Shown piece by piece: positions 4,893-34,159 of a stretch of 64,000 nucleotides of DNA. Made by a program: the position numbers and the translations under genes. This stretch comes from Acidobacteriaceae bacterium (GTDB lineage Bacteria > Acidobacteriota > Terriglobia > Terriglobales > Acidobacteriaceae), in assembly GCA_025360645.1 (NCBI GenBank), contig JANYBT010000130.1:1-64000 (forward strand), in the 5' to 3' direction. Every line of letters starts with the position of its first letter. Within the stretch, counting starts at the first letter, position 1. Below the pieces are notes generated by a model. That model had not been told where the DNA came from. It searched no databases and worked only from the letters and a program-made list of their open reading frames with translations.

Positions 4893-5012
4893 TGACTGCC
4901 GCACGGCTGCGTTGGGTGCCGAGGTTTACGCGTCGGATACCGAGGAAACTGACCGAGGCGGCAAACTCGTCCTTTCCGCCATGCCGCGCACAAGTCATTT
5001 TTCGGCGCACTC

Positions 5013-5051
5013 CAATGGGTATCCTCGGATCGTATCATTCCGATACCATTG
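5013..5051 (-). terminator. Strong hairpin downstream of the TPR gene
   Basis: CAATGGGTATC (5013-5023) pairs with GATACCATTG (5042-5051) with one bulged G, and GGA/TCC extends the stem inward. It lies 45 bases past the stop of the minus-strand TPR gene, where a terminator is expected. The minus strand lacks a U-tract right after the stem. Confidence 0.45.
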
Positions 5052-5095
5052 AAATTCTCTCACGGGCAGATGATCCCTTTCCCCACTGAGACACC

Positions 5096-6343: not shown

Positions 6344-6505
6344 CGGCCTGCCTTGAAGGTTTGGGATTCTCATTCCTGACCTGCGGGACTCCAGGTGCGG
6401 CACCATTATAACCAGCCCGCCCGCCGCCTTGACCCTGCCTTGGCCAAATGCTAGATTTTCGATTCCACTGCATCCGGAGGGGTTTGCCTGGGCCGGTCCA
6501 AAGCG

Positions 6506-9500: not shown

Positions 9501-10342
9501 TACGCTCGATCCCCGGTACACCGGTGCAACGCCTGGCCAAAGCACTACCCTTCCCAGGCATCAGCGACACTCTGGACATGGGACGCAACGCGCTCGCCTA
9601 CGGGTCGACCTATTTCCAACGTGGCTACCTGGATCAAGCCAGGCGATGGTTCGACCAGGCCCTGCGCGAGAACCCCGACAGCGCCGAAGCCCTCTATGGA
9701 TTGGGCAGTGTTGATCTGGAACAGAACCGCGCGGTCGAGGCCCAGCAAGCCTTTGAGCGCGTCACCCAGATGCGCCCGGCGTATCCCGACACCCTGCCCA
9801 AAACCTGGAACAATCTGGGGCTGATCGCGGCCCGCAGCGGCCGCACCGAGCAGGCGATTGATTTCCTGCAACGGTCGCTTGGCCTGAGCCCAGACTACCT
9901 CATCGCGCTCATCAACCTGGGCAACGCCTACCGCCAGCAGAAGAACTGGCCCCTGGCACGAACCGCCTTTGAACGCGCCCTGCAGCTCAACCCTCGCGAT
10001 CCCGAAGCGAACTATGGCCTCGGCATGGTATTTGCCCAGACTGGCGACACCGCCCAGGCAGCCATTTACTTGCAGAGCGCGCTGCAGTCCCGGCCCGACT
10101 ACCCGGAGGCACTCAATAATCTCGGGATCCTCTTCTTGCGCGCCGGCCGGCGTGACGATGCCGTGCGCAACTTCCAGCAGAGCATTCGCGAGGCGCCCAG
10201 CTTTGATCAGGCTTACCTCAATCTGGCGCGAGTCTATGCGCTGGAAGGCAAGCGGGATGAGGCGCGAGCGCTTCTCCAAGATCTTCTAAAGCATGATCCC
10301 CGCAACCCCGCGGCCCACACTTTGCTGAACGACTTGCGCTGA
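6506..10342 (+). CDS. Tat-exported CRTAC protein: FG-GAP repeats, ASPIC/UnbV, thioredoxin-like and TPR domains
   Basis: This 1278-residue fusion starts with a twin-arginine signal (SRREFLWQ within the first 20 residues). Residues about 285-710 hold FG-GAP/VCBS repeats with Ca-binding loops such as DLDGNGFDDLYV, DYDRDGWLDIYF and DANGDGWPDLYV. Residues about 745-820 are an ASPIC/UnbV domain (VGAAVVLETEAGKQTRFVQ, IRWPNGLEQ). Residues about 855-1005 look like an AhpC/TSA-type thioredoxin fold (APEFALPDTKGQILTL) but carry a single Cys in FCAPGSE, not a CXXC pair. Residues about 1030-1278 are TPRs. FG-GAP/ASPIC proteins are thought to bind extracellular ligands, and the exact function is unknown. 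It borders three nucleoside hydrolases and an Oar-like receptor, so a role in surface binding or assembly of that system is possible. Confidence 0.9.
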   Translation: MCEATDFLFSRRSRREFLWQCAQGASLALLPAGLGRWALALDQPPSSPADFYFHPRYRTPSPLDAVLLQTQAGLDSFISEQCAGQVAACLEPWSSALLESPRNLGWIAGVLAEDFAGSSLRPSATRVLRSSPGLEVQGHQFSPQTLPGRAAFLDSLRSLFGGFSHFETVEFQVTSVQPEGSGSAAFDQFRTRIRYELVGAGDGYYRQQRVGQWELLWTNCSSGLRVRRWQALNQTQAVATARHFADVTVSALGSNLSYAAQLTHGTDYWRTVLDGACGIDIYGHNGVAVGDLDGNGFDDLYVCQPAGLPNRLYRNRGDGTLEDITETSGVGLLDNTACALFVDVDNDGRQDLIVVRTSGPILFLNQGSGKFLQKQNAFHFAQPPQGTFTGAAVADYDRDGWLDIYFCLYAYYQGADQYNYPTPYFDANNGPPNFLLGNNRDGTFRDVTQQAGLDANNSRYSFCCAWGDANGDGWPDLYVVNDFGRKNLYRNRGDGTFTDVAGEAGVEDIGAGMSACWLDYSGTGARDLYVADMWTAAGERITAQEAFQSTAASEIRGLYRKHAMGSSLFRNQGSNFADVTSTAGVGNGRWAWSSDEWDFDHDGFPDIYIANGMISGPSRQDLNSFFWRQVVANSPSTAKPSPAYEQGWNAINELVRADGCWSGYERNVLYANNRDGTFADVSGAMGLDFIEDGRAFALADFDHDGRQEIFLKNRNGPQLRILKNVVPGLPPSISFRLTGRQSNRDAVGAAVVLETEAGKQTRFVQAGSGFLSQHSKEVLFGLGSAQGPFRALIRWPNGLEQRLEQLPANHRILVTEGVPEYRPEPFASVSTPPSQAAPALPSSAEALPTDVETWLLAPVAAPEFALPDTKGQILTLAAFRGQRALLSFCAPGSEASRRTLAAFRQYHQQWASEGLKLLSVIVPSSENTPGPRPPEVEDYPFPVLLASDEMAAIYSVLFRYLFDRHRDLPLPTSFLLNENAEIVKVYQGRLDPSHLQQDLRSIPGTPVQRLAKALPFPGISDTLDMGRNALAYGSTYFQRGYLDQARRWFDQALRENPDSAEALYGLGSVDLEQNRAVEAQQAFERVTQMRPAYPDTLPKTWNNLGLIAARSGRTEQAIDFLQRSLGLSPDYLIALINLGNAYRQQKNWPLARTAFERALQLNPRDPEANYGLGMVFAQTGDTAQAAIYLQSALQSRPDYPEALNNLGILFLRAGRRDDAVRNFQQSIREAPSFDQAYLNLARVYALEGKRDEARALLQDLLKHDPRNPAAHTLLNDLR

Positions 10343-19355: not shown

Positions 19356-20333
19356 TCATCCGTTCGCACGCGCCACCAGCAGAATGGCCAGTCCATAAAA
19401 CACGAACATCATCGCCAGATAGAGCTTGGCCCGCGCGGGCGCTCCCGCGAACTCCTTCCACGCGAAGATCCCCCACAATGCCGCCACCATCGGCGCGGAT
19501 TGCCCAATGGCGTAGGAAATCGCGACTCCGGTGAAGCTGGCTGCAACCAGGTTGAACACCATCCCAATTCCCCAAATCACTCCGCCCAATAACCCCAACA
19601 GATGCCCGGACGCCGGCCCTCGCAGAAACCCGCTGAAGCTGACCGGCTCGCCCACCAGCGGCCGCTTCATGAAGTACACGTTCCACACCAGGCAGGAGAG
19701 CACCGCGCCCAGGGTCAGAAACACTGCTACGCCGTAGGGCCCCAGGGTGTTGCCATGGGTCATGGCCCGCGCTACAAATGGCGCCCATAGTCCCATCAGC
19801 ACACCTGACACGACGCAGGTCACAATGCTCTTGTTCGTGACCGATCGGTCTCCGCCCGCCAGGCTCCCGTAGGCCTTGCCATCCCACACCACCGCAATCA
19901 CCGCGCACACCACTCCGGCCGCCAGGAGCAGAGCGTTGCCGCGGGGTTGCAGCGCGTAGCTGGAAATCACCCCCACCACCAGGGCGATGCCAATCGACAA
20001 CGGAAATGCAATCGCCAGTCCCGCCATGTCAATCGCCGCCACCAGCAACAGGTTGGCCAGGTTGAAAATCGCGCCGCCCACCATGACGCTGACTATGTTG
20101 TTGGTGTCGGCACTGCGAACGTTGTTCAAGAAGCTGGAGGCATCATTCCCCGTGCTTCCCATGGTCAGCGCCAGCCCCAACGAGGCCAGAAAGATGCCCA
20201 CCGCATAATCCCAGTAAAACAATTCGAAGCGGTAGTTCTTCACGCCCTTGTAGGTGTTGGCCCACGAGCCCCAGCAAATGGCGCTCGTCATCATCATCAG
20301 CAGTGCAATGCCCAAACTATGGGGCGTGAACAT
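19356..20333 (-). CDS. GRP/ureide-permease-like transporter
   Basis: The 325-residue protein has about ten membrane helices and resembles the drug/metabolite-transporter superfamily, in particular GRP sugar transporters (RbsU type) and ureide permeases. Examples are ICWGSWANTYKGVKNYRFEL near the start and GQSAPMVAALWGIFAWKEF near the end. Known members carry ribose or glucose, or (in plants) allantoin and nucleobases. Between nucleoside hydrolases, with ribokinase nearby, import of the released ribose or a nucleobase is the best guess. A strong site, AGGAG six bases before ATG 20333, fixes the start. It follows NH3 by 45 bases on the same strand, so the two are probably co-transcribed. Confidence 0.8.
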   Translation of the reverse strand: MFTPHSLGIALLMMMTSAICWGSWANTYKGVKNYRFELFYWDYAVGIFLASLGLALTMGSTGNDASSFLNNVRSADTNNIVSVMVGGAIFNLANLLLVAAIDMAGLAIAFPLSIGIALVVGVISSYALQPRGNALLLAAGVVCAVIAVVWDGKAYGSLAGGDRSVTNKSIVTCVVSGVLMGLWAPFVARAMTHGNTLGPYGVAVFLTLGAVLSCLVWNVYFMKRPLVGEPVSFSGFLRGPASGHLLGLLGGVIWGIGMVFNLVAASFTGVAISYAIGQSAPMVAALWGIFAWKEFAGAPARAKLYLAMMFVFYGLAILLVARANG

Positions 20334-20378
20334 GAGCTCTCCTCCGTGTGTGTTTTTGCAGATGATCCTTCGGCACCG

Positions 20379-21443
20379 CTATTTGCCGCGGATTCGCGAC
20401 ACGAACATTTCCAGGAAGCGCGCGGCATCCACTTCCAGGCATACCTTGGCGTTGGGTTCCACCTTGTCCAACCCTTCGATGATGTAGCGGTCGCCGTGCA
20501 ACACGTTCCGCTCCACTACGCCATGCCGGTTCGCCACTGTCTCGCCGCGGGTAAATTCTCCGTGCGTTTCCACCTCCACGTGCATCGGCGGCGCGGTCAC
20601 CAGCGTCGCATCAATCGCCACGCCCACCGCCAGCGGATCATACATGGGACTGCCGGGTGACCCGAACTGCTCCGACAATTGAATCAGATAGCTGGCCACC
20701 TGGTAGATGAAGTCGTTCACCGGCCCATGCGATTGTCTCAGTTGTTCCAGATACTTGGGCGTGAGCAACGTCTTGTCGCCCACGTCCAATCCCACCATGG
20801 TGATCGGCCACCCCGCCTGGAATACGATCTGCGCCGCTTCCGGATCGTTGTAGATGTTCGCTTCCGCCGCGGCCGTCGAGTTGCCCCCACCCACCGACCC
20901 TCCCATCAGGATCACCTCTTTCACCAACGGCACAATCGAAGGGTCTTTCAGCACCGCCAGGGCGATATTGGTCAAGGGACCCACCGGCACCAGCGTGATT
21001 TCGTGCGGCGCGGCATGCACCATTTGAATAATTAAATCCGGCCCGTACCGCCCATCCACCTTGCACTTACTTGGCGGCAGCTCCACATTCGCCAGCCCAT
21101 TCTTGCCGTGCCAGAATTCCGCGGTAATCAGCTTCTGAAACAGCGGGTGTTTGGCCCCGGCCGCCACCGGAATATCACACCGGCCCGCCAGCGACATCAT
21201 CCGCAGCGCGTTCTCCAGGCCCATCTCCGCCGTCACGTTGCCCGGCACCACGGTCACCGCACGCACATCCAGTTCCGGAGAATTCAGCGCCAGCATCAGG
21301 GCCATGGCGTCATCGCTGCCGGGATCGGTGTCCAGGATGATCTTCTTGGCAGCACCCCACGCCGTCGAGCCCAGGCTCAGCATCAACACTGCCGCCAGCA
21401 CGCCCCGAGAGCGCGCTCCCGTCAATTTCTTCAGATCGCTCAA
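20379..21443 (-). CDS. Exported nucleoside hydrolase (NH3)
   Basis: The product has 354 residues. A signal peptide ends near TAWGAA and is followed at once by the metal motif D38-T-D40-PGS-D44-D45. The VPVGPLTNIALAVL and TMVGLDVGDKTLLTPK segments are typical of inosine-uridine hydrolases. The late catalytic pair is Tyr-Asp (SPMYDPLAV), where the well-studied Crithidia enzyme has His-Asp, so leaving-group activation or base preference may differ. The start is TTG at 21443 with GGGAGG six bases upstream. Its signal is of Sec type, unlike the Tat signal of NH2. It is divergent from deoC across a 163-base regulatory region. Confidence 0.92.
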   Translation of the reverse strand: MSDLKKLTGARSRGVLAAVLMLSLGSTAWGAAKKIILDTDPGSDDAMALMLALNSPELDVRAVTVVPGNVTAEMGLENALRMMSLAGRCDIPVAAGAKHPLFQKLITAEFWHGKNGLANVELPPSKCKVDGRYGPDLIIQMVHAAPHEITLVPVGPLTNIALAVLKDPSIVPLVKEVILMGGSVGGGNSTAAAEANIYNDPEAAQIVFQAGWPITMVGLDVGDKTLLTPKYLEQLRQSHGPVNDFIYQVASYLIQLSEQFGSPGSPMYDPLAVGVAIDATLVTAPPMHVEVETHGEFTRGETVANRHGVVERNVLHGDRYIIEGLDKVEPNAKVCLEVDAARFLEMFVSRIRGK

Positions 21444-21523
21444 AATAAACCTCCCTTGAAACAGTGAAGAAGGTAGCTGTGGCCCCGCGAAGTGTCAAGG
21501 CGCAAGGCCCTCTGCCCCCGGCG

Positions 21524-21552
21524 TGGATGTTCCGCGGCCCCTGCCGTACAAT
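21524..21552 (+). promoter_or_regulatory. Candidate deoC promoter
   Basis: TACAAT (21547-21552) matches the -10 consensus at five of six positions. TGGATG 17 bases upstream is a weak -35. Transcription would start near 21559, at the left edge of the dyad described next. Confidence 0.45.
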
Positions 21553-21562
21553 GTCACAGCAC

Positions 21563-21594
21563 GCACTGCAACTCGCGCGAGCGGGTTGCAGTGC
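21563..21594. promoter_or_regulatory. Perfect 10-bp inverted repeat before deoC
   Basis: GCACTGCAAC (21563-21572) and GTTGCAGTGC (21585-21594) are exact inverted copies around a 12-base spacer that itself contains the palindrome CTCGCGCGAG. The dyad ends 12 bases before the deoC ATG and overlaps the predicted start of the transcript. It may be an operator for a LacI/GntR-like regulator or a leader hairpin that limits translation. Confidence 0.6.
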
Positions 21595-21606
21595 GGAAAC
21601 CAGGTA

Positions 21607-22656
21607 ATGTCGCAGCCCCACACTTCCGGCGCCATGACGGAGTCGCGATGGCCATCGCCGCCCCTGTCCGGGGACTCGCGCACAATTGCCACCCTGGATG
21701 GCCGTCCCCTGCTCGCCAACACGGGCATTCCTCTCAACCTGGATTGGGTGCAGCAAGTCCGCGTCAACACCAGCGCGGTGGAGCGCCGCGCCCAAACCCA
21801 CAGCGCTCGCCGGACAGTGAAAAAAGAATGGCAGGCGGCCTGGCTGCTGCGCGCCATAACCTGCATGGACCTGACCACCCTCTCCGGCGATGACACCTAC
21901 GAGCGCGTTCGCCGCCTCTGCGCCAAAGCGCGGCAGCCGCTGCAGCAGGACCTGGTCCAGCGTCTTGGCATTCAGGACCTCGATATTAGAGTCGCCGCCG
22001 TCTGCGTCTATCATGTTTTTGTGGAGACCGCGCTCGACGCCTTGAAAGACAGTGGCGTTCGCGTGGCCGCCGTCTCCGCCGGTTTCCCCGCCGGCCTGTC
22101 TCCTCTGGCCGAGCGAGTGAATGAGATTCGCCGCTCGGTGGAGGCCGGCGCCAATGAGATTGACATCGTGATTACCCGCGCCCACGTCTTCGCCGGCGAA
22201 TGGCAGGCTCTCTACGACGAGATCGCGGCGTTCAAGCAAGCTTGCGGCTCGGCTCACCTGAAAACCATTCTCGGTACCGGCGACCTGATGACTCTGCGCA
22301 ATGTGGCCCGCGCCAGCTTGGTGGCCATGATGGCGGGGGCCGACTTTATTAAGACCTCCACCGGAAAAGAAACCGTCAACGCGACCCTGCCGGTCGGCTT
22401 TGTGATGAGCTGGGCCATCCGCGACTATGCGCAACAGACCGGGATGGCGGTCGGCTTCAAGCCGGCGGGAGGAATCCGGACCGCAAAACAGTCCCTTGAT
22501 TGGCTGGCCATGATCAAAGAGGAACTCGGCGATTCCTGGCTGCGCGCCGAAATGTTTCGCTTCGGCGTCAGCGGGTTGTTGGCGGACATCGAGCGGCAGT
22601 TAGACCACTACTCCACCGGACGCTATGCAGCTGAGTATCGCCACCCGATGGCGTAG
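21607..22656 (+). CDS. deoC: Deoxyribose-phosphate aldolase
   Basis: The 349-residue DeoC is of the longer type, with about 90 extra N-terminal residues compared with the E. coli enzyme. It cleaves 2-deoxyribose 5-phosphate to glyceraldehyde 3-phosphate and acetaldehyde. The Schiff-base Lys lies in DFIK249TSTGKETVNATLPV and the second active-site Lys in GFK285PAGGIRTA. ATG 21607 is preferred over 21523 because CAGG precedes it and the predicted promoter and dyad lie between the two. The aldehyde dehydrogenase gene follows after 25 bases and could oxidise the acetaldehyde. Confidence 0.95.
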   Translation: MSQPHTSGAMTESRWPSPPLSGDSRTIATLDGRPLLANTGIPLNLDWVQQVRVNTSAVERRAQTHSARRTVKKEWQAAWLLRAITCMDLTTLSGDDTYERVRRLCAKARQPLQQDLVQRLGIQDLDIRVAAVCVYHVFVETALDALKDSGVRVAAVSAGFPAGLSPLAERVNEIRRSVEAGANEIDIVITRAHVFAGEWQALYDEIAAFKQACGSAHLKTILGTGDLMTLRNVARASLVAMMAGADFIKTSTGKETVNATLPVGFVMSWAIRDYAQQTGMAVGFKPAGGIRTAKQSLDWLAMIKEELGDSWLRAEMFRFGVSGLLADIERQLDHYSTGRYAAEYRHPMA

Positions 22657-22681
22657 TCCAACCGCTGATAGAGCACACGAT

Positions 22682-25054
22682 ATGAGCATTGCAGATAAAT
22701 TTTCGACCATGGAATACGGCCCCGCCCCAGAAGACCCCAAAGAGGCCGTGGTCTGGCTGGAGTCGCACCGGCGTCAGTTTGGCCACTTCATCTTCGGGGC
22801 ATGGCAGGCCCCGCTCCAGGGTGGATACTTCGACTCTCACGATCCCTCCAGCGGCAAGTTCCTGGCCTCGGTCGCTCAGGGAACCGCTGCGGATGTGGAC
22901 GCTGCCGTCCAGGCCGCTCGCGCTGCCTCGCCGGAATGGCGCGCCCTTACTCCGCATGCCCGCGCCCGCTATCTCTACGCCCTCTCCCGGCTGATTCAAA
23001 AACACTCGCGCCGTCTCGCCGTGCTGGAGACCATGGACACTGGCAAGCCCATTCGCGAAAGCCGCGATCTCGACGTCCCACTGGTAATCCGCCACTTCTA
23101 CCACCATGCCGGATGGGCGCAACTGCTCGCGCAGGAGTTTCCCGACCAACTGCCCTGCGGCATCGTAGGTCAGATCATCCCCTGGAATTTTCCCCTGCTC
23201 ATGCTGGCGTGGAAAATTGCGCCGGCGTTGGCCGGCGCCAACACAGTGGTCCTGAAGCCCGCCGAGTTCACCCCGCTCACCGCGCTGGCCTTTGCCGAAA
23301 TCTGTGTTGAGGCCGGTCTCCCGCCCGGCGTGGTCAATATCATCACCGGCGACGGCTCCACCGGTGAAGCGCTGGTGCGCCATCCCGGCGTGGACAAGAT
23401 CGCCTTCACCGGCTCCACCGAGGTCGGCCGTGCCATCCGCCGCGCCACGGCCCCCTCCAGCCAGCGTCTCTCGCTAGAGTTGGGCGGGAAGTCCCCCTTC
23501 ATCGTGTTCGAAGACGCCGACCTGGACAGCGCCGTCGAAGGCTTGGTGGATGGGATCTGGCTGAATCAAGGCCAGGTCTGCTGCGCTGGCTCGCGCCTGT
23601 TGATGCAGGAGAGCATCGCCGCCAACCTCACCGCCAAGATTCGAGCCCGCATGAGCAAGCTGCGCCTGGGCCCATCCCTGGACAAAGCCGTGGATGTCGG
23701 CGCCATCATCGCCCAGGTCCAACTCGATCGTATCCGGCGCCTGGTGGAACAAGGCATCGCAGAAGGCGCCACCTGCTGGCAGCCCGACCTTCGCCTGCCT
23801 GCCCACGGCCTCTACTATCCCCCAACGCTACTCAGCAACGTGCATCCCACGTCGATTGTGGCGCAGCAGGAAATTTTTGGCCCCGTGCTGGCCGCCATGA
23901 CTTTTCGCACTCCGCGCGAGGCCGTCGAACTGGCCAACAACACCGTCTATGGTCTGGCCGCCTGCGTGTGGAGTGAGAGCATCAACCTGTCGTTGCATGT
24001 GGCCGCGCAGTTGAAGGCAGGCGTGGTGTGGGTGAACTGCACCAACTTGTTTGACGCCTCCTGCGGGTTCGGCGGATACCGCGAAAGCGGCTACGGTCGC
24101 GAGGGCGGCCGCGAAGGCATGCGCGAATATCTGGAACCGGCCTGGTTCAAGAACGCTCCCGCCCTGGCCTCCAGTTTCGCTCCCGTGCCAGAGACCACGC
24201 CCGCCGCCTCGCCTGCCATTGATCGCACCGTCAAACTCTACATCGGCGGTAAACAAGCGCGGCCCGATTCCGGCTACAGCATGGAAGTTCGGGCGCCGGG
24301 TGGGCAACTCCTGGGCGAAGCGCCCCGGGGCAATCGCAAAGACATTCGCAACGCCGTTGAGGCCGCGCACAAGGCCGAAGCCTGGGCCAAAGCCGCCGCC
24401 CACACCCGCGCTCAGGTGCTCTACTATTGCGCCGAGAACCTGTCGCAACGCCGCGCCGAAATCGCCAGCCGCCTCGCGGAGGTGGTCGGAACCAGTCAGG
24501 CCAATGCGGAGCTGGAACACAGCATCGACCGCATTTTTTCCTACGCGGCATGGGCCGATAAGTTTGACGGTGCCGTGCACAATCCGCCGTTCCGCAACGT
24601 CACCCTGGCCATGAACGAACCGGTTGGCGTCATCGGCATCCTCTGTCCGACGGAGGCTCCCCTGCTCGGCTTTATTTCTCTTGTCCTGCCCGCATTGGCC
24701 ATGGGGAACCCCGTTATCGCGGTGCCTTCTGAATCCTACCCGCTGATCGCAGGCGACCTGTATCAGGTCTTCGATACCAGCGATCTGCCCGGCGGTGCCG
24801 TCAACATTGTCACGGGACGGGCACCCGAGTTGCTGGAAGTGCTGGCACAGCACGACGATGTGGACGCCATCTGGTGCTTTACCAACCAGACCGATTCCCA
24901 GGCCGCCAAGACGCTTTCCGTCGGCAACCTCAAGCAGGTGTGGACCAACGAAGGCCGCGTCATTGACTGGTTCAACCCTCAGCAGGCCGAGGGGCGCTGG
25001 TTCCTGGCCCATGCCACCCAGGTAAAGAACATTTGGATCCCTTACGGCGAGTAA
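22682..25054 (+). CDS. Bipartite ALDH16-type aldehyde dehydrogenase
   Basis: The product has 790 residues and two aldehyde dehydrogenase modules. The first (about 35-480) is complete: IIPWNFPLLMLAWK, FTGSTEVGRAI, ELGGKSPFIVFEDADLD with the general-base Glu, and the catalytic Cys C300 in GQVCCAG. The second (about 515-790) keeps cofactor-fold features (EPVGVIGILCPTEAPLLGF, LPGGAVNIVTG) but lacks the catalytic Cys and the ELGGK motif. This layout is known for ALDH16 enzymes, in which the second module is structural. With deoC just upstream, acetaldehyde from deoxyribose is the likely substrate; other aldehydes remain possible. ATG 22682 was chosen because the only earlier frame start lies inside deoC. 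Confidence 0.93.
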   Translation: MSIADKFSTMEYGPAPEDPKEAVVWLESHRRQFGHFIFGAWQAPLQGGYFDSHDPSSGKFLASVAQGTAADVDAAVQAARAASPEWRALTPHARARYLYALSRLIQKHSRRLAVLETMDTGKPIRESRDLDVPLVIRHFYHHAGWAQLLAQEFPDQLPCGIVGQIIPWNFPLLMLAWKIAPALAGANTVVLKPAEFTPLTALAFAEICVEAGLPPGVVNIITGDGSTGEALVRHPGVDKIAFTGSTEVGRAIRRATAPSSQRLSLELGGKSPFIVFEDADLDSAVEGLVDGIWLNQGQVCCAGSRLLMQESIAANLTAKIRARMSKLRLGPSLDKAVDVGAIIAQVQLDRIRRLVEQGIAEGATCWQPDLRLPAHGLYYPPTLLSNVHPTSIVAQQEIFGPVLAAMTFRTPREAVELANNTVYGLAACVWSESINLSLHVAAQLKAGVVWVNCTNLFDASCGFGGYRESGYGREGGREGMREYLEPAWFKNAPALASSFAPVPETTPAASPAIDRTVKLYIGGKQARPDSGYSMEVRAPGGQLLGEAPRGNRKDIRNAVEAAHKAEAWAKAAAHTRAQVLYYCAENLSQRRAEIASRLAEVVGTSQANAELEHSIDRIFSYAAWADKFDGAVHNPPFRNVTLAMNEPVGVIGILCPTEAPLLGFISLVLPALAMGNPVIAVPSESYPLIAGDLYQVFDTSDLPGGAVNIVTGRAPELLEVLAQHDDVDAIWCFTNQTDSQAAKTLSVGNLKQVWTNEGRVIDWFNPQQAEGRWFLAHATQVKNIWIPYGE

Positions 25055-25072
25055 CTCCGCACCGCGCCTCTT

Positions 25073-25258
25073 ATGAAGCCCATTCGCTCTGCCCGCGTCA
25101 AAATCTGCTGCATCGCCAGCCTGCAGGAAGCCGCCCTCGCGGTGGAGCATGGCGCCTCGGCCCTCGGACTGGTGTCGCACATGCCAAGCGGGCTGGGAGT
25201 AATCGGCGATGATCTCATCGCTTGGATTGCCGCTGCCACTCCGCCCTCCATCGGTTAA
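25073..25258 (+). pseudogene. Truncated phosphoribosylanthranilate isomerase-like (trpF) fragment
   Basis: The 61 residues (ARVKICCIASLQEAALAVEH, then GASALGLVSHMPSGLGVI) match the N-terminal part of TrpF-like barrels, which are normally about 200 residues. The frame ends in TAA at 25256-25258 and no remainder is found after it. It starts 18 bases after the aldehyde dehydrogenase stop, so it is probably still transcribed with that operon. The second half overlaps the left copy of a 53-bp segment that recurs inverted beyond ribokinase. It is most likely a remnant; a retained short peptide cannot be excluded. Confidence 0.65.
25163..25215 (+). repeat. Inverted repeat, left copy (trpF-derived, 53 bp)
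   Basis: This segment begins CTCGGACTGG and ends GATGATCT. It matches the reverse complement of 26370-26422 at 50 of 53 positions. It encodes LGLVSHMPSGLGVIGDDL in the trpF-like frame. Identity stops sharply at both ends. Confidence 0.9.
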
Positions 25259-25354
25259 GGAGAAGCGCCAAAGCAAGAGTCGAACAGCGAAAAAGGCCAA
25301 GTAGCTACTGGAGTTGCTCGACCACATAGTACAGCGAATATGTAGTCTGATCTC

Positions 25355-26290
25355 TCAAGCCCCGTCGCGCTTCTGCCACTCGGCTTCAAAGTTGGCGCGA
25401 GTGTAGAACGATTTCTGGGTGCCCACACCGGTAGTGGAAAGACCGGCATACAGATTGGCACGGCGGACGGCGTCCGGTTCGGCCATCCCTTCGGCCAGGA
25501 AGGTGGCGAAGCTGCCGATGAAGGCGTCGCCGGCACCGGTGCTGTCCAGACTCTTCATGGGAAATGGGGGCACGTGCACCACGCCATCGGGGCTGGCGAT
25601 CAGCGACCCATTGGCACCCAAGGTAATCAGGACGCGGCGAATGCCCTGGTCCAGCAATTGGCGAGCGCATTTGCCGGCTTCTTCCACGTTCCGCACCGGC
25701 ATCCCTGAGATGGCCTCGGCCTCGCTCTCGTTGGGAACGAAGTAGTCGAGACCGGCGATGGCTTGCGGATCCACCGGTTGGGCGGGAGCAGGGTTGAGAA
25801 TGCAGCGGATGCCGTGCTTCCTGGCGAACTGGATCGTGTAGTACACGGTTTCCAGCGGAATTTCAAATTGCAGCACGATGCAGCCGGCGGACTTCAACAT
25901 TTCGGCGGCACTATCCACATCGGCGGGCGTGAGTTTGTCATTGGCGCCCTTCACCACGATGATGCGATTCTGGCCGGAGGAGTCTACGAAGATGGGAGCG
26001 ACGCCGCTGGAGACCCCAGGGACTTGCCGGACGTGGGTGGAATCAATCCCGAGATTTCGGAAGTTCTGAATGGTGGCGGGGCCGAACAGGTCGTCGCCGA
26101 CGCGGGCTACCATGAAGACCTCGGCACCACAGAGTTTGGCGGCGACCGCCTGGTTGGCGCCCTTGCCGCCAAACCCAAGATCAAAACTCTTGCCGAAAAT
26201 GGTTTCTCCGGGCTTGGGGAAGTGGTCAGAAAAAGTGGTGAGGTCAACATTGGCACTGCCCACTACGGCGATACGGGGAGTCTTGGACAT
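25355..26290 (-). CDS. rbsK: Ribokinase (PfkB family)
   Basis: The 311-residue sugar kinase phosphorylates ribose to ribose 5-phosphate. The N-terminal signature is NVDLTTFSDHFPKPGETIFG, followed by GFGGKGANQAVAA. The C-terminal PfkB signature DSTGAGDAFIGSFATF contains the catalytic Asp. NPAPAQP and LGANGS are typical of ribokinase. ATG 26290 fits the family start; the frame is open upstream through the right copy of the trpF-like repeat, up to 26470. It would use ribose freed by the exported nucleoside hydrolases and imported by the GRP-like transporter. The orientation is opposite to deoC and the aldehyde dehydrogenase, and the gene is bracketed by inverted repeats. Confidence 0.93.
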   Translation of the reverse strand: MSKTPRIAVVGSANVDLTTFSDHFPKPGETIFGKSFDLGFGGKGANQAVAAKLCGAEVFMVARVGDDLFGPATIQNFRNLGIDSTHVRQVPGVSSGVAPIFVDSSGQNRIIVVKGANDKLTPADVDSAAEMLKSAGCIVLQFEIPLETVYYTIQFARKHGIRCILNPAPAQPVDPQAIAGLDYFVPNESEAEAISGMPVRNVEEAGKCARQLLDQGIRRVLITLGANGSLIASPDGVVHVPPFPMKSLDSTGAGDAFIGSFATFLAEGMAEPDAVRRANLYAGLSTTGVGTQKSFYTRANFEAEWQKRDGA

Positions 26291-26369
26291 GAGGCATCTC
26301 GAAGTAGAATTTACATCTGGATCAGGAAGGCCGAGTTTAGTCAGGCGGCTGGTTTGTGTCAACCGCAGC

Positions 26370-26422
26370 AGATCATCGTCGATTACTCCCGGCCCGCTTG
26401 GCATGTGCGAGACCAGTCCGAG
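26370..26422 (-). repeat. Inverted repeat, right copy (trpF-derived, 53 bp)
   Basis: Read on the minus strand, this copy encodes LGLVSHMPSGPGVIDDDL and differs from the left copy at three bases. It lies in the gap between the monoheme cytochrome gene and ribokinase. No other trpF-like sequence flanks it, so it is only a fragment. Confidence 0.9.
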
Positions 26423-26441
26423 TTTCCCAGTGGGGATGGGA

Positions 26442-26975
26442 TCATCTGCCGGCGGGCGGTTCAGCTCCACCGGTTTGTTTCCAGAAGTCTTTCGCTGCCG
26501 GCGACAGTTTCCGGACGCGGTTCAGAAACATGGTGATCTTCCACATGTCCTGCTCCGACAAAACGTTCTGCCACCCTGGCATTCCGGTGTTGCGGACGCC
26601 CGTGCGCGTAATATAAAAAACCTGCCCTTCCGGGTCATTTACCCCTCCACGGATCAAAAGCTGTGGGGCCGGAGGAAACAGGTTCTTGGCCAGGGATCCG
26701 GGCTTCATGTCTAAACCGCCGTGACACAGCGCACAATTCGCGGTGTACACCACCATGCCGTCGATCACGTTTTCGTCGGTAGGGGCGATTGGGTTGGTGA
26801 CCTGGGGTGCCTGACGCGCCACCGATGCGTCACGGGCCGCACCCGCTATACGAAACTCGATCTTGGACGGTTGAGTAAGCGCGCTGGTCGGAAAGAATCC
26901 CAAAAGCAGGTAGCCCAACCAAACCAGCAAGAGGATCGGCGTGGCCACAATGATGCCCAGAACAAAATTTCGCAT
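26442..26975 (-). CDS. Membrane-anchored monoheme cytochrome c
   Basis: The product has 177 residues. One N-terminal membrane helix (about 3-29) is followed by a class I cytochrome c domain with C81-A-L-C84-H85 and a likely axial Met in NTGMPGWQ. The order (heme site, LIRGGVNDPEGQVFYITRTG, GMPGW, LSEQDMWKITMFLNRV) is that of small cytochromes of the c6/cbb3 subunit III type. It is the last gene of the porin-cytochrome operon, 126 bases after the 15-heme cytochrome. It could carry electrons between the inner membrane and the periplasmic multiheme protein. The start has AGAGGG a few bases upstream. Confidence 0.9.
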   Translation of the reverse strand: MRNFVLGIIVATPILLLVWLGYLLLGFFPTSALTQPSKIEFRIAGAARDASVARQAPQVTNPIAPTDENVIDGMVVYTANCALCHGGLDMKPGSLAKNLFPPAPQLLIRGGVNDPEGQVFYITRTGVRNTGMPGWQNVLSEQDMWKITMFLNRVRKLSPAAKDFWKQTGGAEPPAGR

Positions 26976-27101
26976 ATTCCCTCTCCATGAACGGTCGATT
27001 GAAAATCCCAGTGCCGGTTCCGAATCCCTGAGGCTTCGATTCCATTTTCCCTGGAGCCGGATTGTCCTTAGCCGTTCGGCTTCGCGGCGCCAGTCCTGCG
27101 C

Positions 27102-28445
27102 TTACCGAAGGTGACATTCGGCGCACGTATCCTGATAAGTATGGCAGGTAAAGCAACTGCGCTTGTTGAGCATGGCCAGTCTGGCGTGCCCGCCGTTCTT
27201 GAATGGAGGCAGAGGAACGTGAGTGCGCGGCAACTCATTGTGGCAGCGGCTGCAGAAATCGTTCTGGTGGCAGGTTGCACAACTTGTGCGATCGATGGCC
27301 GCATACTTTCCGTGCAGATCGTCAGCCCAGCGAGCGGTATGAGACGCAGGGCGCATCACCTGATGACAGGCGAGACACTGTGTGGTGGGCGCCGATTTTG
27401 GCGAAATACTGGTGTGACACAGGAAACACTTAGCGTCCGCTCCGGCAGCTTGCTCTGAGTGATGCGGACGAAATCCTTCGGTGTGTGAAGCAGGTTTCAC
27501 ATCTCGGGTATGGCTCGCCGGTATCGGGCCGGACTGATGATCGACATGGCAGAGCTGGCAGTTGGTCATTCGGAATTCCGCGGTGAGCGCTTTAGAAGTC
27601 TCATGACAGCCGACGCAGTCGATCTTGTTGGGCAGAGCAACCTCTGCAAGGCTCTTGCTGGTGGTCACATCGGAGTGGCAGGTGGCGCAGACCATCGGCA
27701 TTCGGTCCCGCGCGTTGAAATGGTCGGAGTGAGAAAACTTGATATTGAGGTAATCGGTGGCATCGATATGAGGGGCGATCCGCTGCCGCACTTTGGTCAA
27801 GGTCGGGTTCTCCATCTGCTCCGGATTGTGGCAACCGTGGCAGTCTGTGCCCGTGGATGTAGCGCTCAGCATGGGCTGAATCCCGGCCTTGGCATGGCAT
27901 GAAGCACACTCCACGTGGCCGGGAAAACTCGCTTCATCCCCAGAAGCCTTCACTTGATGGCAGAATGCACAATCGGCGCGGGCCCTAGTTATTGGATCGA
28001 TGCGGGCCTTCGGGTCGGCATGATGTTCATGCGAAAACTCGACCAGAATTGCGTGCTGGTTTTTGAACCGCGGGTAGGGTAGTAGGTCACTGGACGAGCC
28101 GGCCTTGGACGCATCATGGCAAGGAGTGCAATACTTCCCGCTCGGCGTGGCCCCCGCCTTGTAGGCGAAGTCCTCCTTGTGACACCCGCCGCACTCGTCG
28201 TGCCCAGGACGCTTCAGCACGACCGAGCCCTCCTTGACCGGAAGGTGGCACGAATCGCAGTCAAACCCTTGCTTGACATGGACGTCGTGCATCAAGAAGG
28301 GACCGGGCTGAGCCGCTGTGGTCCCCGCCGGGGGAGTAGGCTTCTTCATTGACTTTGGCGACTCCTGGGCCAGCAATCCCGCTACGCCTCCCGTCACCAG
28401 ACATGCGAGCGCCAGAACCCCAATGCATTTCAGTCCGCGCTTCAT
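27102..28445 (-). CDS. Periplasmic multiheme cytochrome c with 15 CXXCH motifs
   Basis: The 447-residue product has a signal peptide (MKRGLKCIGVLALACLVTGG) and fifteen CXXCH heme sites spread evenly: CDSCH, CGGCH, CTPCH, CAFCH, CASCH, CHGCH, CATCH, CVGCH, CQLCH, CFLCH, CLACH, CATCH, CSRCH, CFTCH and CAECH. That is about one heme per 30 residues, as in electron-wire proteins. Its ATG overlaps the TGA of the outer-membrane barrel gene by one base, and GGAG lies seven bases upstream, so the two are probably translationally coupled. This suggests a fixed ratio and a complex in which the cytochrome plugs or contacts the barrel, as MtrA does MtrB. The electron donor and acceptor are unknown. Confidence 0.93.
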   Translation of the reverse strand: MKRGLKCIGVLALACLVTGGVAGLLAQESPKSMKKPTPPAGTTAAQPGPFLMHDVHVKQGFDCDSCHLPVKEGSVVLKRPGHDECGGCHKEDFAYKAGATPSGKYCTPCHDASKAGSSSDLLPYPRFKNQHAILVEFSHEHHADPKARIDPITRARADCAFCHQVKASGDEASFPGHVECASCHAKAGIQPMLSATSTGTDCHGCHNPEQMENPTLTKVRQRIAPHIDATDYLNIKFSHSDHFNARDRMPMVCATCHSDVTTSKSLAEVALPNKIDCVGCHETSKALTAEFRMTNCQLCHVDHQSGPIPASHTRDVKPASHTEGFRPHHSEQAAGADAKCFLCHTSISPKSAPTTQCLACHQVMRPASHTARWADDLHGKYAAIDRTSCATCHQNDFCSRCHNELPRTHVPLPPFKNGGHARLAMLNKRSCFTCHTYQDTCAECHLR

Positions 28446-30100
28446 CAATATCTCCATGCCAAACCCAGCCGCAGGGTCTGAGTGTTCCGAATATCCGGCC
28501 GAAAAATTGGATAGTCGGTATCAAGGCTGTACTCCGCATAAGCACGAGTGCGCGGATTCAGCTTCACCGACGCGCTTCCCAGCGCCCCCTTGGCGGTGGA
28601 CTGCGTGGTGCCAAAGAAGATGCCCTGAAAATCCAGCAGCCGGTAGAACGCCCCCGCCTTCACGCTCACCCGGCCCTCGCCAAAACTTCGTCCTATCTCT
28701 GCGCTCACGTCCTGCGTCCTACGCTCGCCCGTGGTGGCGATATCGTCCAGCCCGGTTGAGTTGGGCAGGAAGCGGTTGGAATCTCTCTGATGAAAGTCCA
28801 GAAACACAGTGATCTTTCTCCACGGGTAGACTTGGGCATTGGCGCGATAATCCTGAAACGGAGTGTCGAAGGCGCCTTGATTTCTGGCATCGCTCAGGCG
28901 CCTGATCCAGACGCTGCCCCCTAAGTGAAGTCTGCTGGTAAGAACTCGATGAACATCGACTAACACCTGGGTGTGAGGAGCAATCGCACCCAGATTAAGT
29001 CGTACGAGCCGATTGTAGGGATCGCGATCGTGGACAACACCAGTGTAGTCGTAGAAGTAGTCTCTGTTGGTAAGCTGCTGCGCGAAGTCCAGGCGCACGG
29101 TCGTCTTGCCATTCGGAGGTGACCAAAAGCCGCTCGCCGTGTACTCCACTGGGGAGCCGCCTACCATCCGAAACTGTGTGCTAAAGAAGAAACCCCGGGC
29201 GAACTGTTGCCGGTAGCTAAACAGATGAGTTCCTTTGACGTAATAGAGCGCCTCATACTCCAGCGTGGCCTTGCCCAGCCTCCACACGAAGTTGCCTCCG
29301 CCAATCAATCTCTGTTTTGGATCGGTGTAGTAGGAGAACCTTCGTCCTCCATATACCGTATAGGAGAACTTAGGCTGGTTTAGGGTAAACGACACCCCAT
29401 CAAAGGCCGCCAGTTCCGCGCTGTAAACATCCTGCCGACCCACCCGGAGAGTGGACCCCGCCAACCATCCATCACTCGGCCGTGAATTGATATCCACGTA
29501 TCCCGCCAGCAGTTGCACCTCGCGGTTCGCTGTGAATGTGTTTACCACACTCAGCGAAGGCGACCCCTGGTTGGTATGAGTGAGGTCCTGCTGGTAGCGG
29601 AACGAAAAATTCGTATTGATCCGGTCCGACAGCCAGCCGCGTGTGCCCCAACTCAAAAAGCTGTACATCGCGTTCGTACTGGGTTGAAAGTCGGAGGGAT
29701 ACGGAGTGCCGGGAGGATTGCCGGGCTGTCCCGGAATCGCGTCGATCACTCCAGTCACGGTGGGCAGACCGGTGAAGGCGGTCTGAGCGCGTCGGTATTC
29801 GGTGCGCCCCTCAAAAAAAGCATGATTAAGGAAATCGTCGGTGGATCCGGTTTCGGTAGAAGCCGCCGAACCACCGGCGAGCGAATCCGGCGGGAGTGGA
29901 GGTGCCGGGGAAGCGGAGTCTTGCAAAACGCTTCCCCATGCACTGGTCATGCTGACTTTGGGCGCCGACGGTGCGGGTGCAGCCTCGGCGCTGGGTGGCT
30001 GCTGCCCTCTAGCCGCGAGGGAAATCAGCAGTAGCAGGCAAACGTTCACCAGTCGAGTTATCAATGGATCGAACGTCCGCACACTTTCCCCGGGGCCCAA
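28445..30100 (-). CDS. Outer-membrane beta-barrel protein, probable porin of a porin-cytochrome complex
   Basis: The product has up to 551 residues. A signal peptide (VCLLLLISLAARGQQ) and a Pro/Ala/Ser-rich stretch (about 35-90) precede a region of alternating hydrophobic and polar residues with many aromatics. The C-terminus LRLGLAWRY ends in an aromatic residue, as outer-membrane barrels do. Typical strands are SYTVYGGRRFSYYTD and RAYAEYSLDTDYPIF. No family name can be given from sequence alone. Lying between TPR and 15-heme cytochrome genes, it is best read as the barrel of an electron conduit. The start is uncertain: TTG 30100, or GTG 30082 preceded by GGGGA. Confidence 0.82.
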   Translation of the reverse strand: MGPGESVRTFDPLITRLVNVCLLLLISLAARGQQPPSAEAAPAPSAPKVSMTSAWGSVLQDSASPAPPLPPDSLAGGSAASTETGSTDDFLNHAFFEGRTEYRRAQTAFTGLPTVTGVIDAIPGQPGNPPGTPYPSDFQPSTNAMYSFLSWGTRGWLSDRINTNFSFRYQQDLTHTNQGSPSLSVVNTFTANREVQLLAGYVDINSRPSDGWLAGSTLRVGRQDVYSAELAAFDGVSFTLNQPKFSYTVYGGRRFSYYTDPKQRLIGGGNFVWRLGKATLEYEALYYVKGTHLFSYRQQFARGFFFSTQFRMVGGSPVEYTASGFWSPPNGKTTVRLDFAQQLTNRDYFYDYTGVVHDRDPYNRLVRLNLGAIAPHTQVLVDVHRVLTSRLHLGGSVWIRRLSDARNQGAFDTPFQDYRANAQVYPWRKITVFLDFHQRDSNRFLPNSTGLDDIATTGERRTQDVSAEIGRSFGEGRVSVKAGAFYRLLDFQGIFFGTTQSTAKGALGSASVKLNPRTRAYAEYSLDTDYPIFRPDIRNTQTLRLGLAWRY

Positions 30101-30115
30101 GTTGCGCTGCCATCC

Positions 30116-30970
30116 CTACTTCGATCGAGTCTTCCTTTGCAGCGACGTAATCATTGTATTCGCAAGCGTGATTCGCCAAGGGTAGACATCACTGTGCCAT
30201 TGGGTGGCCTGCAAATATGACTGTAACTCGGTGATCGCGTTGCTGTTTTGCCCTAATGCCTGATAAATCTCCGAGAGCGCCCAGTGAACATGTGCGTTGT
30301 TAGCCAAATCGTTGGTGAGGGCGATCGTCTGCGGCGTCACCGGCGACAATGCCAGCTCCGCCTGATAGGCCTGAATCGCGTTGTTATACGCCACTTGCTG
30401 AGCAGTTTTGTCCACGGTCTGCTCTGCCTGGATGACGTAGGTCGCACCGATCAGGCTATTTACACCCAGCTTGATCGGATCGATTTGGAGCACTTCCTGG
30501 AACATCGAAATCGCCTGGGCGGGATCGGATTGCCGTAATAGATAGCCCAAGCGCAACCGAATGGTAAATATGCATGGAGCAGGACTCAGCGTACTCGGGA
30601 GTGTACCCGCGGTTGTCCCAGTCTGCACCAGAGAGGCCGCAGTCACGATCTGACATGTGCCATTCTGGAGACTGTTCAGTGACAGTGCCGTCTGGTAGTC
30701 CGCAATGGCGCTCTTGGTGTCATCTAAATCGTCTTGATAGTGGATGCCGCGCTGCAAATATTCCCAGGTATTGGAAGGCTGAGTAATCCCCAGCAGGTTC
30801 CAGTCAATCCGGCCCTCAAAATAGAACGGGTTGGGAACCGGGTAGTTGGGGTTGGTGGTTTGGAAATCCCCTGGCTTGTAGGAGCCGTAAGTGCCGGCCT
30901 GGGCCACGACTACACCGAGGAGTAGCCAGATAGAGAGCAGGAGAGAAAGTCGCAATACTCTTGAGCTCAT
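30116..30970 (-). CDS. Exported TPR-like protein of the cytochrome operon
   Basis: The product has 284 residues. A signal peptide (ending VVVAQAG) precedes a short segment rich in Tyr/Pro/Asn (YKPGDFQTTNPNYPVPNPFY) and a helical repeat region. Recognisable TPR-like helices are AIADYQTALSLNS, LRLGYLLRQSDPAQAISMFQ and VHWALSEIYQALGQNSNAIT. It starts four bases after the 5-heme cytochrome gene and ends 15 bases before the barrel gene. It may help assemble the barrel-cytochrome complex; no direct evidence exists. Confidence 0.85.
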   Translation of the reverse strand: MSSRVLRLSLLLSIWLLLGVVVAQAGTYGSYKPGDFQTTNPNYPVPNPFYFEGRIDWNLLGITQPSNTWEYLQRGIHYQDDLDDTKSAIADYQTALSLNSLQNGTCQIVTAASLVQTGTTAGTLPSTLSPAPCIFTIRLRLGYLLRQSDPAQAISMFQEVLQIDPIKLGVNSLIGATYVIQAEQTVDKTAQQVAYNNAIQAYQAELALSPVTPQTIALTNDLANNAHVHWALSEIYQALGQNSNAITELQSYLQATQWHSDVYPWRITLANTMITSLQRKTRSK

Positions 30971-30974
30971 GATG

Positions 30975-33146
30975 TTACTGTACCTCCACGGTGGTGTCCG
31001 CCGAAGCGATGTTCTGGATATTCTTGAGTTTCGTGTCGATCAGTTTTTCATCGACTAACTGAAGGCCACTTCCGGTCGGACCTCCCGGCCCGGTCGTCTG
31101 CGCCAGGTAGCGCAAAAAGAGCGGCGGGAAGTGCTCGAAATTCACTTGCGCATGGACGTGCAGCGGGCCCTTAATCGTAATGCCAAGTGCCTGCTGTTCC
31201 GCCAACGTGGGTAACTGAATGGCGTAGGTGAAGGTTCTCGGAGTCAGCGGCTGCAGCGAACGGAAGTTGTCCACCGAATTGGCCAAGGCCGCGTTGAAGG
31301 TTTCCTCGAAGTGCGCGGTTTGCGCCTTCAGCGGATTCCCCTGCGCATCATTACGACCGACGCGATCCGTGGTGCATGTAGTCGCGGACGGCAGGCAGGG
31401 CACGAAAACGTGCGTCAACTCGTTGCGGAACAGCACCAACCCCTCCGGCACACCTGCATACACCCGCCCTTCCGGACCGTCGTCCGGCCCCAACTCGAGG
31501 AGCGCGTTATTACCGCCGTTGGTGCCCGTCCCCGGAGTATAGGTGGGCGTGTAATGGCCGCCATCCACCACGGCATGGACATGTTCAATGTCCTCATCAT
31601 CCAAATTGCCGTCGGGCGCCGCTTCCCCGGTAATGGGATGCGGTTTGTCAACCACATAGCCCGATTGATAGACGAGGAAGCCGTTATCGTCGGTCACCTG
31701 CAGCTGCACGTACACGGTCCGCTCCTGGGAGAAGCCGGCAGGCAGGCGATGACCTGTCAGGGATACTGCTTCGACGCGAACGTTAAAGGGCTGACCCGGA
31801 GTCGCCGTCGTATCACTCTTGCTCACATTGATACGAACCGCCGCTTTCAGCAGAGCTTCGCGGCGGTTGGCGATGCCAACGGGTACACCGTGGGTGTCCG
31901 TCCCCGTCGCATTCGGATCGGGATAGTTCGACCCCAGCCGCGCCTTCAATTCGTCGGCGGAAAGCAGCGGGACGTCAACTCCGGTAAAGAAGTGAGTGAC
32001 TACCTTGCGCTGCGGCAGCGGGTAATTCTGGTCGGTTGAGACTCCGGGAACGGCGGCGAAGTCGGTAGGGAATACCGCAGGCGTCGGACTGGTCACCGTC
32101 ATGTCGCCGACTTGATAGGTCGAACTCCCGGCGTAAGGGAAGAGCGACATGTGGCAATCCTGGCAACGGACGATTTGGCTGAAGGGGTTCTTGGTGCTGT
32201 TGTACGCACCCACTTGCCACTCCGAGCTCAGGTTCTCGAGACGAAAAAACTTCACCTTCGACCCACCCGGATTGATGTTGTACTCCTGGGAGGTCAGATT
32301 GTTATTGGGCACGCGCACGTCATGGCAGGAGTTGCAAAACGCTCCCGCACGCAGGAACCCAATCCGGTCTGGATCGTTGCTGACTACGTGGAAACTGTCC
32401 TTGACTCCGACCGGGAACAAGAACGGTCCGACCTTCTCTTTGGTAGGCGTCAGAATCAGGCTGGTATTGGCGAAGCCGTCATGCATGAAGCTCCGATTCA
32501 AATCCGGGCCGTTCTGGTTGTGGCAAAGGTCGCAGGTAATCCCCGCGGCTCCCAGCGAAGGCAGCGCGTCCGTCGGCGGATAATCGCCTGGGTTGGTAGG
32601 AAGGATCTGCTTGTGGCTGCTGTCCACCATCGCATAGTCCCGCAAAGGCCGGAATAGGGTTGGCAGAAAATTCTGCCCCAACCCGTCAAGCTGCGGCACT
32701 TCTCGCGCGCTCAGGTTTTTATCGCTGATCATTTCAACGTTCGGGTTGTGGCAGGTTACGCAGAAGCCGGCTTGCACTTGCCTGGTTTCTGTCAACACGG
32801 GCGAAGAAAACATGTTGGTGTTCAGCGGGGTGCCATCGGGCAGCACCACCTTGCTGTCGGCATAAACCGGACGCAGCAGGCCGCCGTTGATCAGGTTGCC
32901 GGCTGACTCAAGTCCGTTGAAGAGGGGGCTGACGTTTCTGTACCCGGCTTTCACGGCCTGGCGCAACTCACTGTACTGGCGTTGATGGCAAGGCAAGCAA
33001 CTTTCCGGACGCTGGAAGGGCTGCGGCTGGAACTGCGGCGGAGGTGGGGGCGGACCCCCCGTTGCCACCGGCGTCTGCTGGACCCCACAGCCCAATTGCA
33101 ACGCACAGAGTCCCACTAGCGAGAGAATCGTGACCTTGGTTCGCAT
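30975..33146 (-). CDS. Multiheme cytochrome c lipoprotein with five CXXCH motifs
   Basis: The product has 723 residues. A lipoprotein signal with lipobox LQLGC20 is followed by a poly-Pro/Gln linker. Five heme sites lie in the first half: CLPCH (from C50), CVTCH, CDLCH, CNSCH and CQDCH. The C-terminal half has beta-rich segments (HRLPAGFSQERTVYVQLQVT) and scattered His residues that could be distal ligands. It is first in the operon, so it may be the cell-surface or periplasm-facing terminal cytochrome of the conduit. ATG 33146 was preferred over TTG 33152 because it begins the lipoprotein signal. Confidence 0.9.
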   Translation of the reverse strand: MRTKVTILSLVGLCALQLGCGVQQTPVATGGPPPPPPQFQPQPFQRPESCLPCHQRQYSELRQAVKAGYRNVSPLFNGLESAGNLINGGLLRPVYADSKVVLPDGTPLNTNMFSSPVLTETRQVQAGFCVTCHNPNVEMISDKNLSAREVPQLDGLGQNFLPTLFRPLRDYAMVDSSHKQILPTNPGDYPPTDALPSLGAAGITCDLCHNQNGPDLNRSFMHDGFANTSLILTPTKEKVGPFLFPVGVKDSFHVVSNDPDRIGFLRAGAFCNSCHDVRVPNNNLTSQEYNINPGGSKVKFFRLENLSSEWQVGAYNSTKNPFSQIVRCQDCHMSLFPYAGSSTYQVGDMTVTSPTPAVFPTDFAAVPGVSTDQNYPLPQRKVVTHFFTGVDVPLLSADELKARLGSNYPDPNATGTDTHGVPVGIANRREALLKAAVRINVSKSDTTATPGQPFNVRVEAVSLTGHRLPAGFSQERTVYVQLQVTDDNGFLVYQSGYVVDKPHPITGEAAPDGNLDDEDIEHVHAVVDGGHYTPTYTPGTGTNGGNNALLELGPDDGPEGRVYAGVPEGLVLFRNELTHVFVPCLPSATTCTTDRVGRNDAQGNPLKAQTAHFEETFNAALANSVDNFRSLQPLTPRTFTYAIQLPTLAEQQALGITIKGPLHVHAQVNFEHFPPLFLRYLAQTTGPGGPTGSGLQLVDEKLIDTKLKNIQNIASADTTVEVQ

Positions 33147-33310
33147 GGACAATACCCGCCTCGTTTCGCCAAAAATTGAAGGTTCACTACAACTGTCATT
33201 TCTGCTGCTATTTTCAGAAGCGGTTTTCGCGCGTTCAGCGGTTTAATCGGGGGGTTAACCCGCTTGCAGAAATTGACCGTTATTCAAAGTGCCCTGCTTG
33301 ACCCTCGGTT

Positions 33311-33817: not shown

Positions 33818-34159
33818 ATGAATTTACTTCGAAGAGCTTTGGTTTTGTTTGCGACGGTCGCAGTACTTTGCGGAATGGCGCTTGCGCAGCCCCCTGAGGA
33901 CCTTGGGCCCGGTCGTGCGGTGTTCATGAGCAAGTGCAAGGTTTGCCACGGTTCTACGGGTGAAGGGAACCCGGCCGTGGCGCGGGCGCTCAAAACGACT
34001 CAGCCGGTTTTGTACGCAGAGACGGTGCAGGGCAAGTCTGACGCGGACCTAAAAAAGATCATCGCGATGGGCAGCGGGAAGATGAAACCGGTCGCTGGCA
34101 TGGGAGACTCTGATTTCGGTAGTGTGATCGCGTTCGTTCGCACCTTGAAACAGCCGTAG
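33818..34159 (+). CDS. Small periplasmic monoheme cytochrome c
   Basis: The product has 113 residues. A signal peptide (ending ALAQ) precedes a compact class I cytochrome c with C40-K-V-C43-H44-GSTGEGNPAVA and likely axial Met in KMKPVAGM. Length and motifs fit a soluble c6/c552-like electron shuttle. AGGGGGAC lies about ten bases before the ATG. It is divergent from the porin-cytochrome operon, with which it may share control, and could pass electrons to that complex. Confidence 0.92.
   Translation: MNLLRRALVLFATVAVLCGMALAQPPEDLGPGRAVFMSKCKVCHGSTGEGNPAVARALKTTQPVLYAETVQGKSDADLKKIIAMGSGKMKPVAGMGDSDFGSVIAFVRTLKQP

Follow-up and report, generated by a model that had tools for sequence, protein, structure and literature searches.

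The closest described systems to the gene block considered here are the porin-cytochrome conduits, represented by MtrCAB, MtoAB and PioAB. The OmbB-OmaB-OmcB and ExtABCD complexes of Geobacter have barrels from families distinct from MtrB, together with periplasmic and surface multiheme cytochromes (PMC7399161). Within the phylum Acidobacteriota, clusters of multiheme and predicted-barrel genes have been reported in marine members and in Thermoanaerobaculum aquaticum, and metal-oxide reduction has been proposed for them (PMC8528874). Canonical MtrB-type conduits also look common in this phylum on the evidence of gene content, with the MtrB_PioB family (PF11854) found in 90 of 396 sampled genomes and, in most of the loci examined (L030-L041), beside decahemes. 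The same search of the genome under study gave no MtrB/PioB match. In the open-licence literature (papers without their supplements) no article recognisably on the block was found, and lists such as that of PMC11475568 may include it.

The block lies in a 64 kb window, the whole stretch of DNA analysed, where a sequence-only reading had described a five-gene porin-cytochrome conduit with a 5-heme lipoprotein. The conduit itself is still the best-supported reading, with a barrel of a kind other than MtrB, but the five-gene make-up and the lipoprotein did not hold up. From their anatomy and linkage, four genes probably encode a porin-cytochrome-like outer-membrane electron conduit with a barrel family of its own.

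The gene block and its occurrence in relatives

Gene calls and heme counts agree with the five minus-strand genes as first described, and the TGATG overlap of the barrel and 15-heme genes is present in the sequence (Table 1). The first four genes are separated by 4, 15, and -1 bp, and the membrane-anchored monoheme gene starts 126 bp downstream of the 15-heme gene. GC content by codon position is alike across all five genes and resembles that of the neighbouring kinase gene, so all five look real, and a signal-peptide-like N-terminal segment was seen by eye in each product of the first four. The block is not a chance arrangement, since 15 and 5 CXXCH motifs are packed in two open frames, with only isolated ones elsewhere in the window, and the order of the first four genes is repeated in many genomes. 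Pfam gave only generic multiheme and TPR models over the block. Its GC content (56-59%, against 57-64% in the flanks) does not clearly point to recent import. A nucleoside/pentose catabolism run occupies positions 19356-26470 of the window, with ureide/sugar permease, nucleoside hydrolase, DeoC aldolase, aldehyde dehydrogenase-like and ribokinase-like genes.

Table 1. Positions (window numbering) and properties of the block and of the monoheme gene divergent from it
Feature	Positions	Strand	Properties
Pentaheme c-type cytochrome gene	30975-33152	-	725 aa, 5 CXXCH, signal peptide
Exported TPR protein gene	30116-30970	-	284 aa
Outer-membrane beta-barrel gene (predicted)	28445-30100	-	551 aa, no heme motif, C-terminus ...LAWRY
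15-heme c-type cytochrome gene	27102-28445 or 28457	-	447/451 aa, 15 CXXCH, ATG at either
Membrane-anchored monoheme cytochrome c gene	26442-26975	-	177 aa, one CXXCH, N-terminal membrane helix
Small monoheme cytochrome c gene	33818-34159	+	Divergent from block; homologues adjoin block in relatives
TGATG stop/start overlap, barrel/15-heme genes	28443-28447	-	Read in sequence

The order pentaheme-TPR-barrel-15-heme, all on the same strand, recurs at L010-L012, L014, L015, L017, L018, and L053-L056, and L009, L013, and L016 show whatever part of the block their contigs contain. The survey of Acidobacteriota thus returned four genes in one order at every locus with enough contig. The conserved core is four genes, not five. 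What was called a five-gene operon stands as regards the first four, which are tight and keep their order; for the fifth, the membrane-anchored monoheme gene, none of the relatives examined has a homologue adjoining the block, and it was rejected as a core member on account of this lack of conservation.

A two-motif scan for the barrel across 84,980 species genomes gave ten loci, all in Acidobacteriota, and because exact motifs miss divergent members, other phyla may also host it. The barrel was found in the window genome and in 3 of 99 relatives, and in 12 of 299 genomes of its class, belonging to six families. The pentaheme gene occurs in 11 of these 299, all within the 12 that have the barrel, the lone mismatch being G692, whose barrel starts at contig base 3. 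Both genes are found in the same 2 of the 396 genomes of the phylum sample, the window genome included, and only one sampled genome outside the class has the barrel family. This member, G234, has adjacent pentaheme and TPR genes on one contig and the barrel on another, both contigs being short. No other sampled genus of the window's own family has the barrel, so the distribution is patchy, for which either transfer or repeated loss may account. Pairwise distances of the barrel, pentaheme and 15-heme proteins correlate at r 0.97-0.98, to which shared ancestry contributes. The genes of the block are inherited together and form a coherent system in Acidobacteriota from soil or associated with sponges, the sponge origin of some records being presumed from sample names.

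The barrel and the 15-heme cytochrome

The barrel protein has no match in Pfam (E<=1) or NCBIfam, and a PDB sequence search with its profile returned nothing meaningful. An AlphaFold model made with 11 orthologues has 22 strands in residues 92-547 (mean pLDDT 62.9, strand count approximate), and over residues 88-549 it matches large outer-membrane barrels of many kinds, among which MtrB (6r2q_B; Z 14.4, rmsd 8.3, 361 residues aligned) does not come ahead of ushers or OccK porins. As these matches span many kinds with MtrB not leading, the predicted structure supports an outer-membrane barrel class and leaves an MtrB fold undecided. By hhalign, the barrel profile showed no relation to nine Acidobacteriota MtrB proteins (probability 0.95%). 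The earlier remark that the barrel does not look like those of the model systems agrees, as regards MtrB/PioB, with this profile comparison. As judged against Pfam, NCBIfam, PDB and MtrB/PioB, the protein most likely represents a barrel family of its own (Geobacter OmbB and ExtB/E/I lie outside this comparison). With no detectable MtrB relation, the block is missed by the MtrB/PioB model and by MtrB-based searches; some surveys of extracellular electron transfer use MtrB and Geobacter barrel models (PMC7399161).

A protein that in structure resembles above all generic barrels (AlgE, OccK, ushers), MtrB being included but not first, might be an ordinary solute or secretion pore, in which case the cytochromes would form a separate periplasmic chain and their co-location would be one of operon convenience. 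We consider this highly improbable given that the 15-heme gene is linked at every class locus with enough contig, that barrel and pentaheme strictly co-occur and that the genes overlap or nearly do so. The outcome named beforehand as speaking against a conduit was not encountered: a barrel is predicted, and cytochrome neighbours are present in every relative with enough contig.

The 15-heme protein retains 15 CXXCH in all 12 complete orthologues, in which, besides the 15 heme-motif histidines, exactly 15 further histidines are invariant. The simplest reading of these is one distal histidine per heme, with all hemes bis-His, as would befit a wire rather than an enzyme. Bis-His ligation is found at all 20 hemes of MtrC and MtrA (PMC7198977). 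Counted without its signal peptide, the protein has about 28 residues for each heme and is nearly as heme-dense as MtrA, which has 25 (PMC7399161). It matches MtrA-type decahemes by profile at 98.3%, although multiheme profiles match easily. In the conduit that we propose, the barrel would sheathe the 15-heme cytochrome, the hemes of which would serve as a wire across the outer membrane.

The pentaheme and TPR proteins

All 5 CXXCH motifs of the pentaheme protein lie within residues 50-332 and are followed by a long heme-free C-terminal part. Examination of the window protein and of seven orthologues revealed no lipobox. The cysteine that had suggested one occurs in the window protein only, and the signal of most orthologues ends A-Q or G-Q. 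On both grounds the lipoprotein assignment was rejected, and the protein is probably not a lipoprotein. Neither a lipid anchor nor a known export signal that would put it outside was seen; a PDB sequence search with its profile gave nothing meaningful, and no relatives were found on plasmids. As part of a conduit, it would be a terminal or docking cytochrome at one face of the barrel.

Among the three subunits compared (pentaheme, barrel, 15-heme), the pentaheme protein shows the strongest conservation, with orthologues 58-66% identical against 41-47% for the barrel. Only seven extra histidines are invariant, mostly in the C-terminal part, and for this reason bis-His ligation at every heme is not evident. 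Both observations would suit a substrate-specific reductase that has an open heme site and receives its electrons through the wire, in place of a non-specific outer cytochrome. The neighbouring TPR gene would suit it too, the gene for the TPR protein NrfG being adjacent in nrf operons. Such a function seems to us somewhat unlikely, as no CXXCK or other catalytic heme motif was seen in the protein, it matched no known reductase, and its structure prediction (pLDDT 36) was left unused.

The TPR protein, with orthologues 49-61% identical and an invariant cysteine pair (106/133), is encoded between the pentaheme and barrel genes in all loci with full context, and even in G234, a distant member, its gene adjoins that for the pentaheme protein. 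This constancy agrees with its having been described at the outset as an added part of the system. Within the proposed conduit, it may help to hold or mature the pentaheme protein. That it is instead a dedicated apocytochrome chaperone for heme attachment and not a structural subunit, which would be compatible with a conduit, is a reasonable possibility, though short of probable. The pentaheme and TPR genes form the tightest pair, G234 included, and TPR domains are known in CcmH/NrfG; set against this, the protein does not match the CcmH/CycH TPR model at E<=1 and there is no unusual heme motif that would need a chaperone.

Electron input and comparison with known conduits

Homologues of the small divergent monoheme cytochrome (33818-34159), whose gene lies beyond the positions first given for the operon, are found beside the block at L009, L014, L017/L053, L054, and L055, and this protein is a candidate periplasmic shuttle. 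Further neighbours in the relatives are of three types. In type A (L009, L014, L055) the small monoheme is accompanied by a tetraheme of NapC/NirT type that has membrane helices and by a cNMP-binding membrane protein. Type B (L017/L053, L054) has a NuoEF-like subunit, an Fe-S protein with cNMP domains, a membrane protein and a decaheme. Type C, in a genus including sponge-associated genomes, has an octaheme cytochrome (612 aa, weak c552/c554 similarity) downstream of the block in L012, L015, L016, and L056, which is regularly accompanied after the conduit genes by TPR and UnbV/ASPIC proteins; no NapC/NirT module was found near the block in the sponge-associated group. No electron-input module occurs on the sequence examined for L010 and L011, and in L011 a short tblastn hit of cNMP type on the upstream side of the block was dropped, having no open frame.

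In G234 (L021, C128, 1955-4912, minus strand), a fusion of an NDH-2-like protein with a cNMP domain, so named from sequence read by eye, a membrane cNMP protein and a tetraheme are all encoded beside the barrel gene, and cyclic-nucleotide control of electron input is possible there. The phosphate-binding cassette FGExAL....PR is intact in five cNMP domains from type A and G234; the motif was not matched in those of type B. Because the NapC/NirT- and NADH-type donor modules of relatives carry cNMP-binding domains, the block could be read as a separately evolved conduit, with its own barrel, a 15-heme wire and a pentaheme head docked by the TPR protein, and with cyclic nucleotides gating the supply of electrons to it. 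As a whole we hold this to be quite doubtful.

No donor module adjoins the block in the window genome; of the possible input genes, just the divergent monoheme homologue is present there. The only NapC/NirT gene of this genome, for a hexaheme, lies away from the block (L026, C128:38000-54000; 6217-9858, minus strand) and adjoins a gene for an 11-heme/cytochrome b561 fusion (CbcL-like), the two products being plausible quinol-linked donors. A radical SAM/SPASM protein and a CRP-type regulator are encoded close by. Elsewhere in this genome (L057, C140:1000-15000; 4977-9491, plus strand), tandem giant cytochromes of 686 and 709 aa carry 23 and 28 CXXCH, with regulator-like genes upstream and, among the unassigned proteins downstream, a membrane protein resembling that of the NADH-type module of L017.

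The small monoheme cytochrome c and, in relatives, the NapC/NirT tetraheme or NADH-type dehydrogenase would feed electrons to the conduit, so outward flow is favoured over inward. The electrons would pass to an extracellular acceptor, which may be metal oxide, humic matter or a partner cell. It is unlikely, in our judgement, that the same conduit runs inward, with the pentaheme protein oxidising a donor outside or at the surface, such as Fe(II), as in MtoAB/PioAB, and electrons passing through the 15-heme wire and monoheme cytochrome to the aerobic chain. The window genome does have genes read by eye as alternative complex III (5-heme and molybdopterin-like subunits), the recurrent small partner is a cytochrome-c-type monoheme protein, and NapC/NirT and NADH modules are reversible in principle. 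However, the NDH-2 and NuoEF-like partners oxidise NADH in known systems, and no donor-specific oxidase was found.

If the block does conduct, the barrel-plus-heme-wire solution also occurs with barrels that show no detectable relation to MtrB, and an electron route across the outer membrane has been overlooked in some soil bacteria. The Geobacter porin-cytochrome complexes differ from the block in gene set and heme numbers. The clusters of marine Acidobacteriota and Thermoanaerobaculum share with it, as described, the phylum, multihemes and predicted barrels. Compared with MtrCAB, MtoAB and PioAB, a TPR protein is added here. The barrel falls outside PF11854, shows no profile relation to MtrB/PioB (probability 0.95%), and is predicted, at modest confidence, to have about 22 strands where MtrB has 26. 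The wire carries 15 hemes in all 12 complete orthologues against 10 in the MtrA type, the barrel gene precedes the cytochrome gene, in contrast to the MtrAB type, and in place of MtrC, the decaheme lipoprotein of the outer face in MtrCAB, there is a pentaheme protein without a lipobox. The block has one mark of a porin-cytochrome system in the functional sense, linkage between the genes for an outer-membrane barrel and a multiheme wire, and it resembles MtrCAB, MtoAB and PioAB in that these two genes adjoin, in the large size of the predicted barrel, in the extra cytochrome and in a c-type wire whose hemes are probably bis-His.
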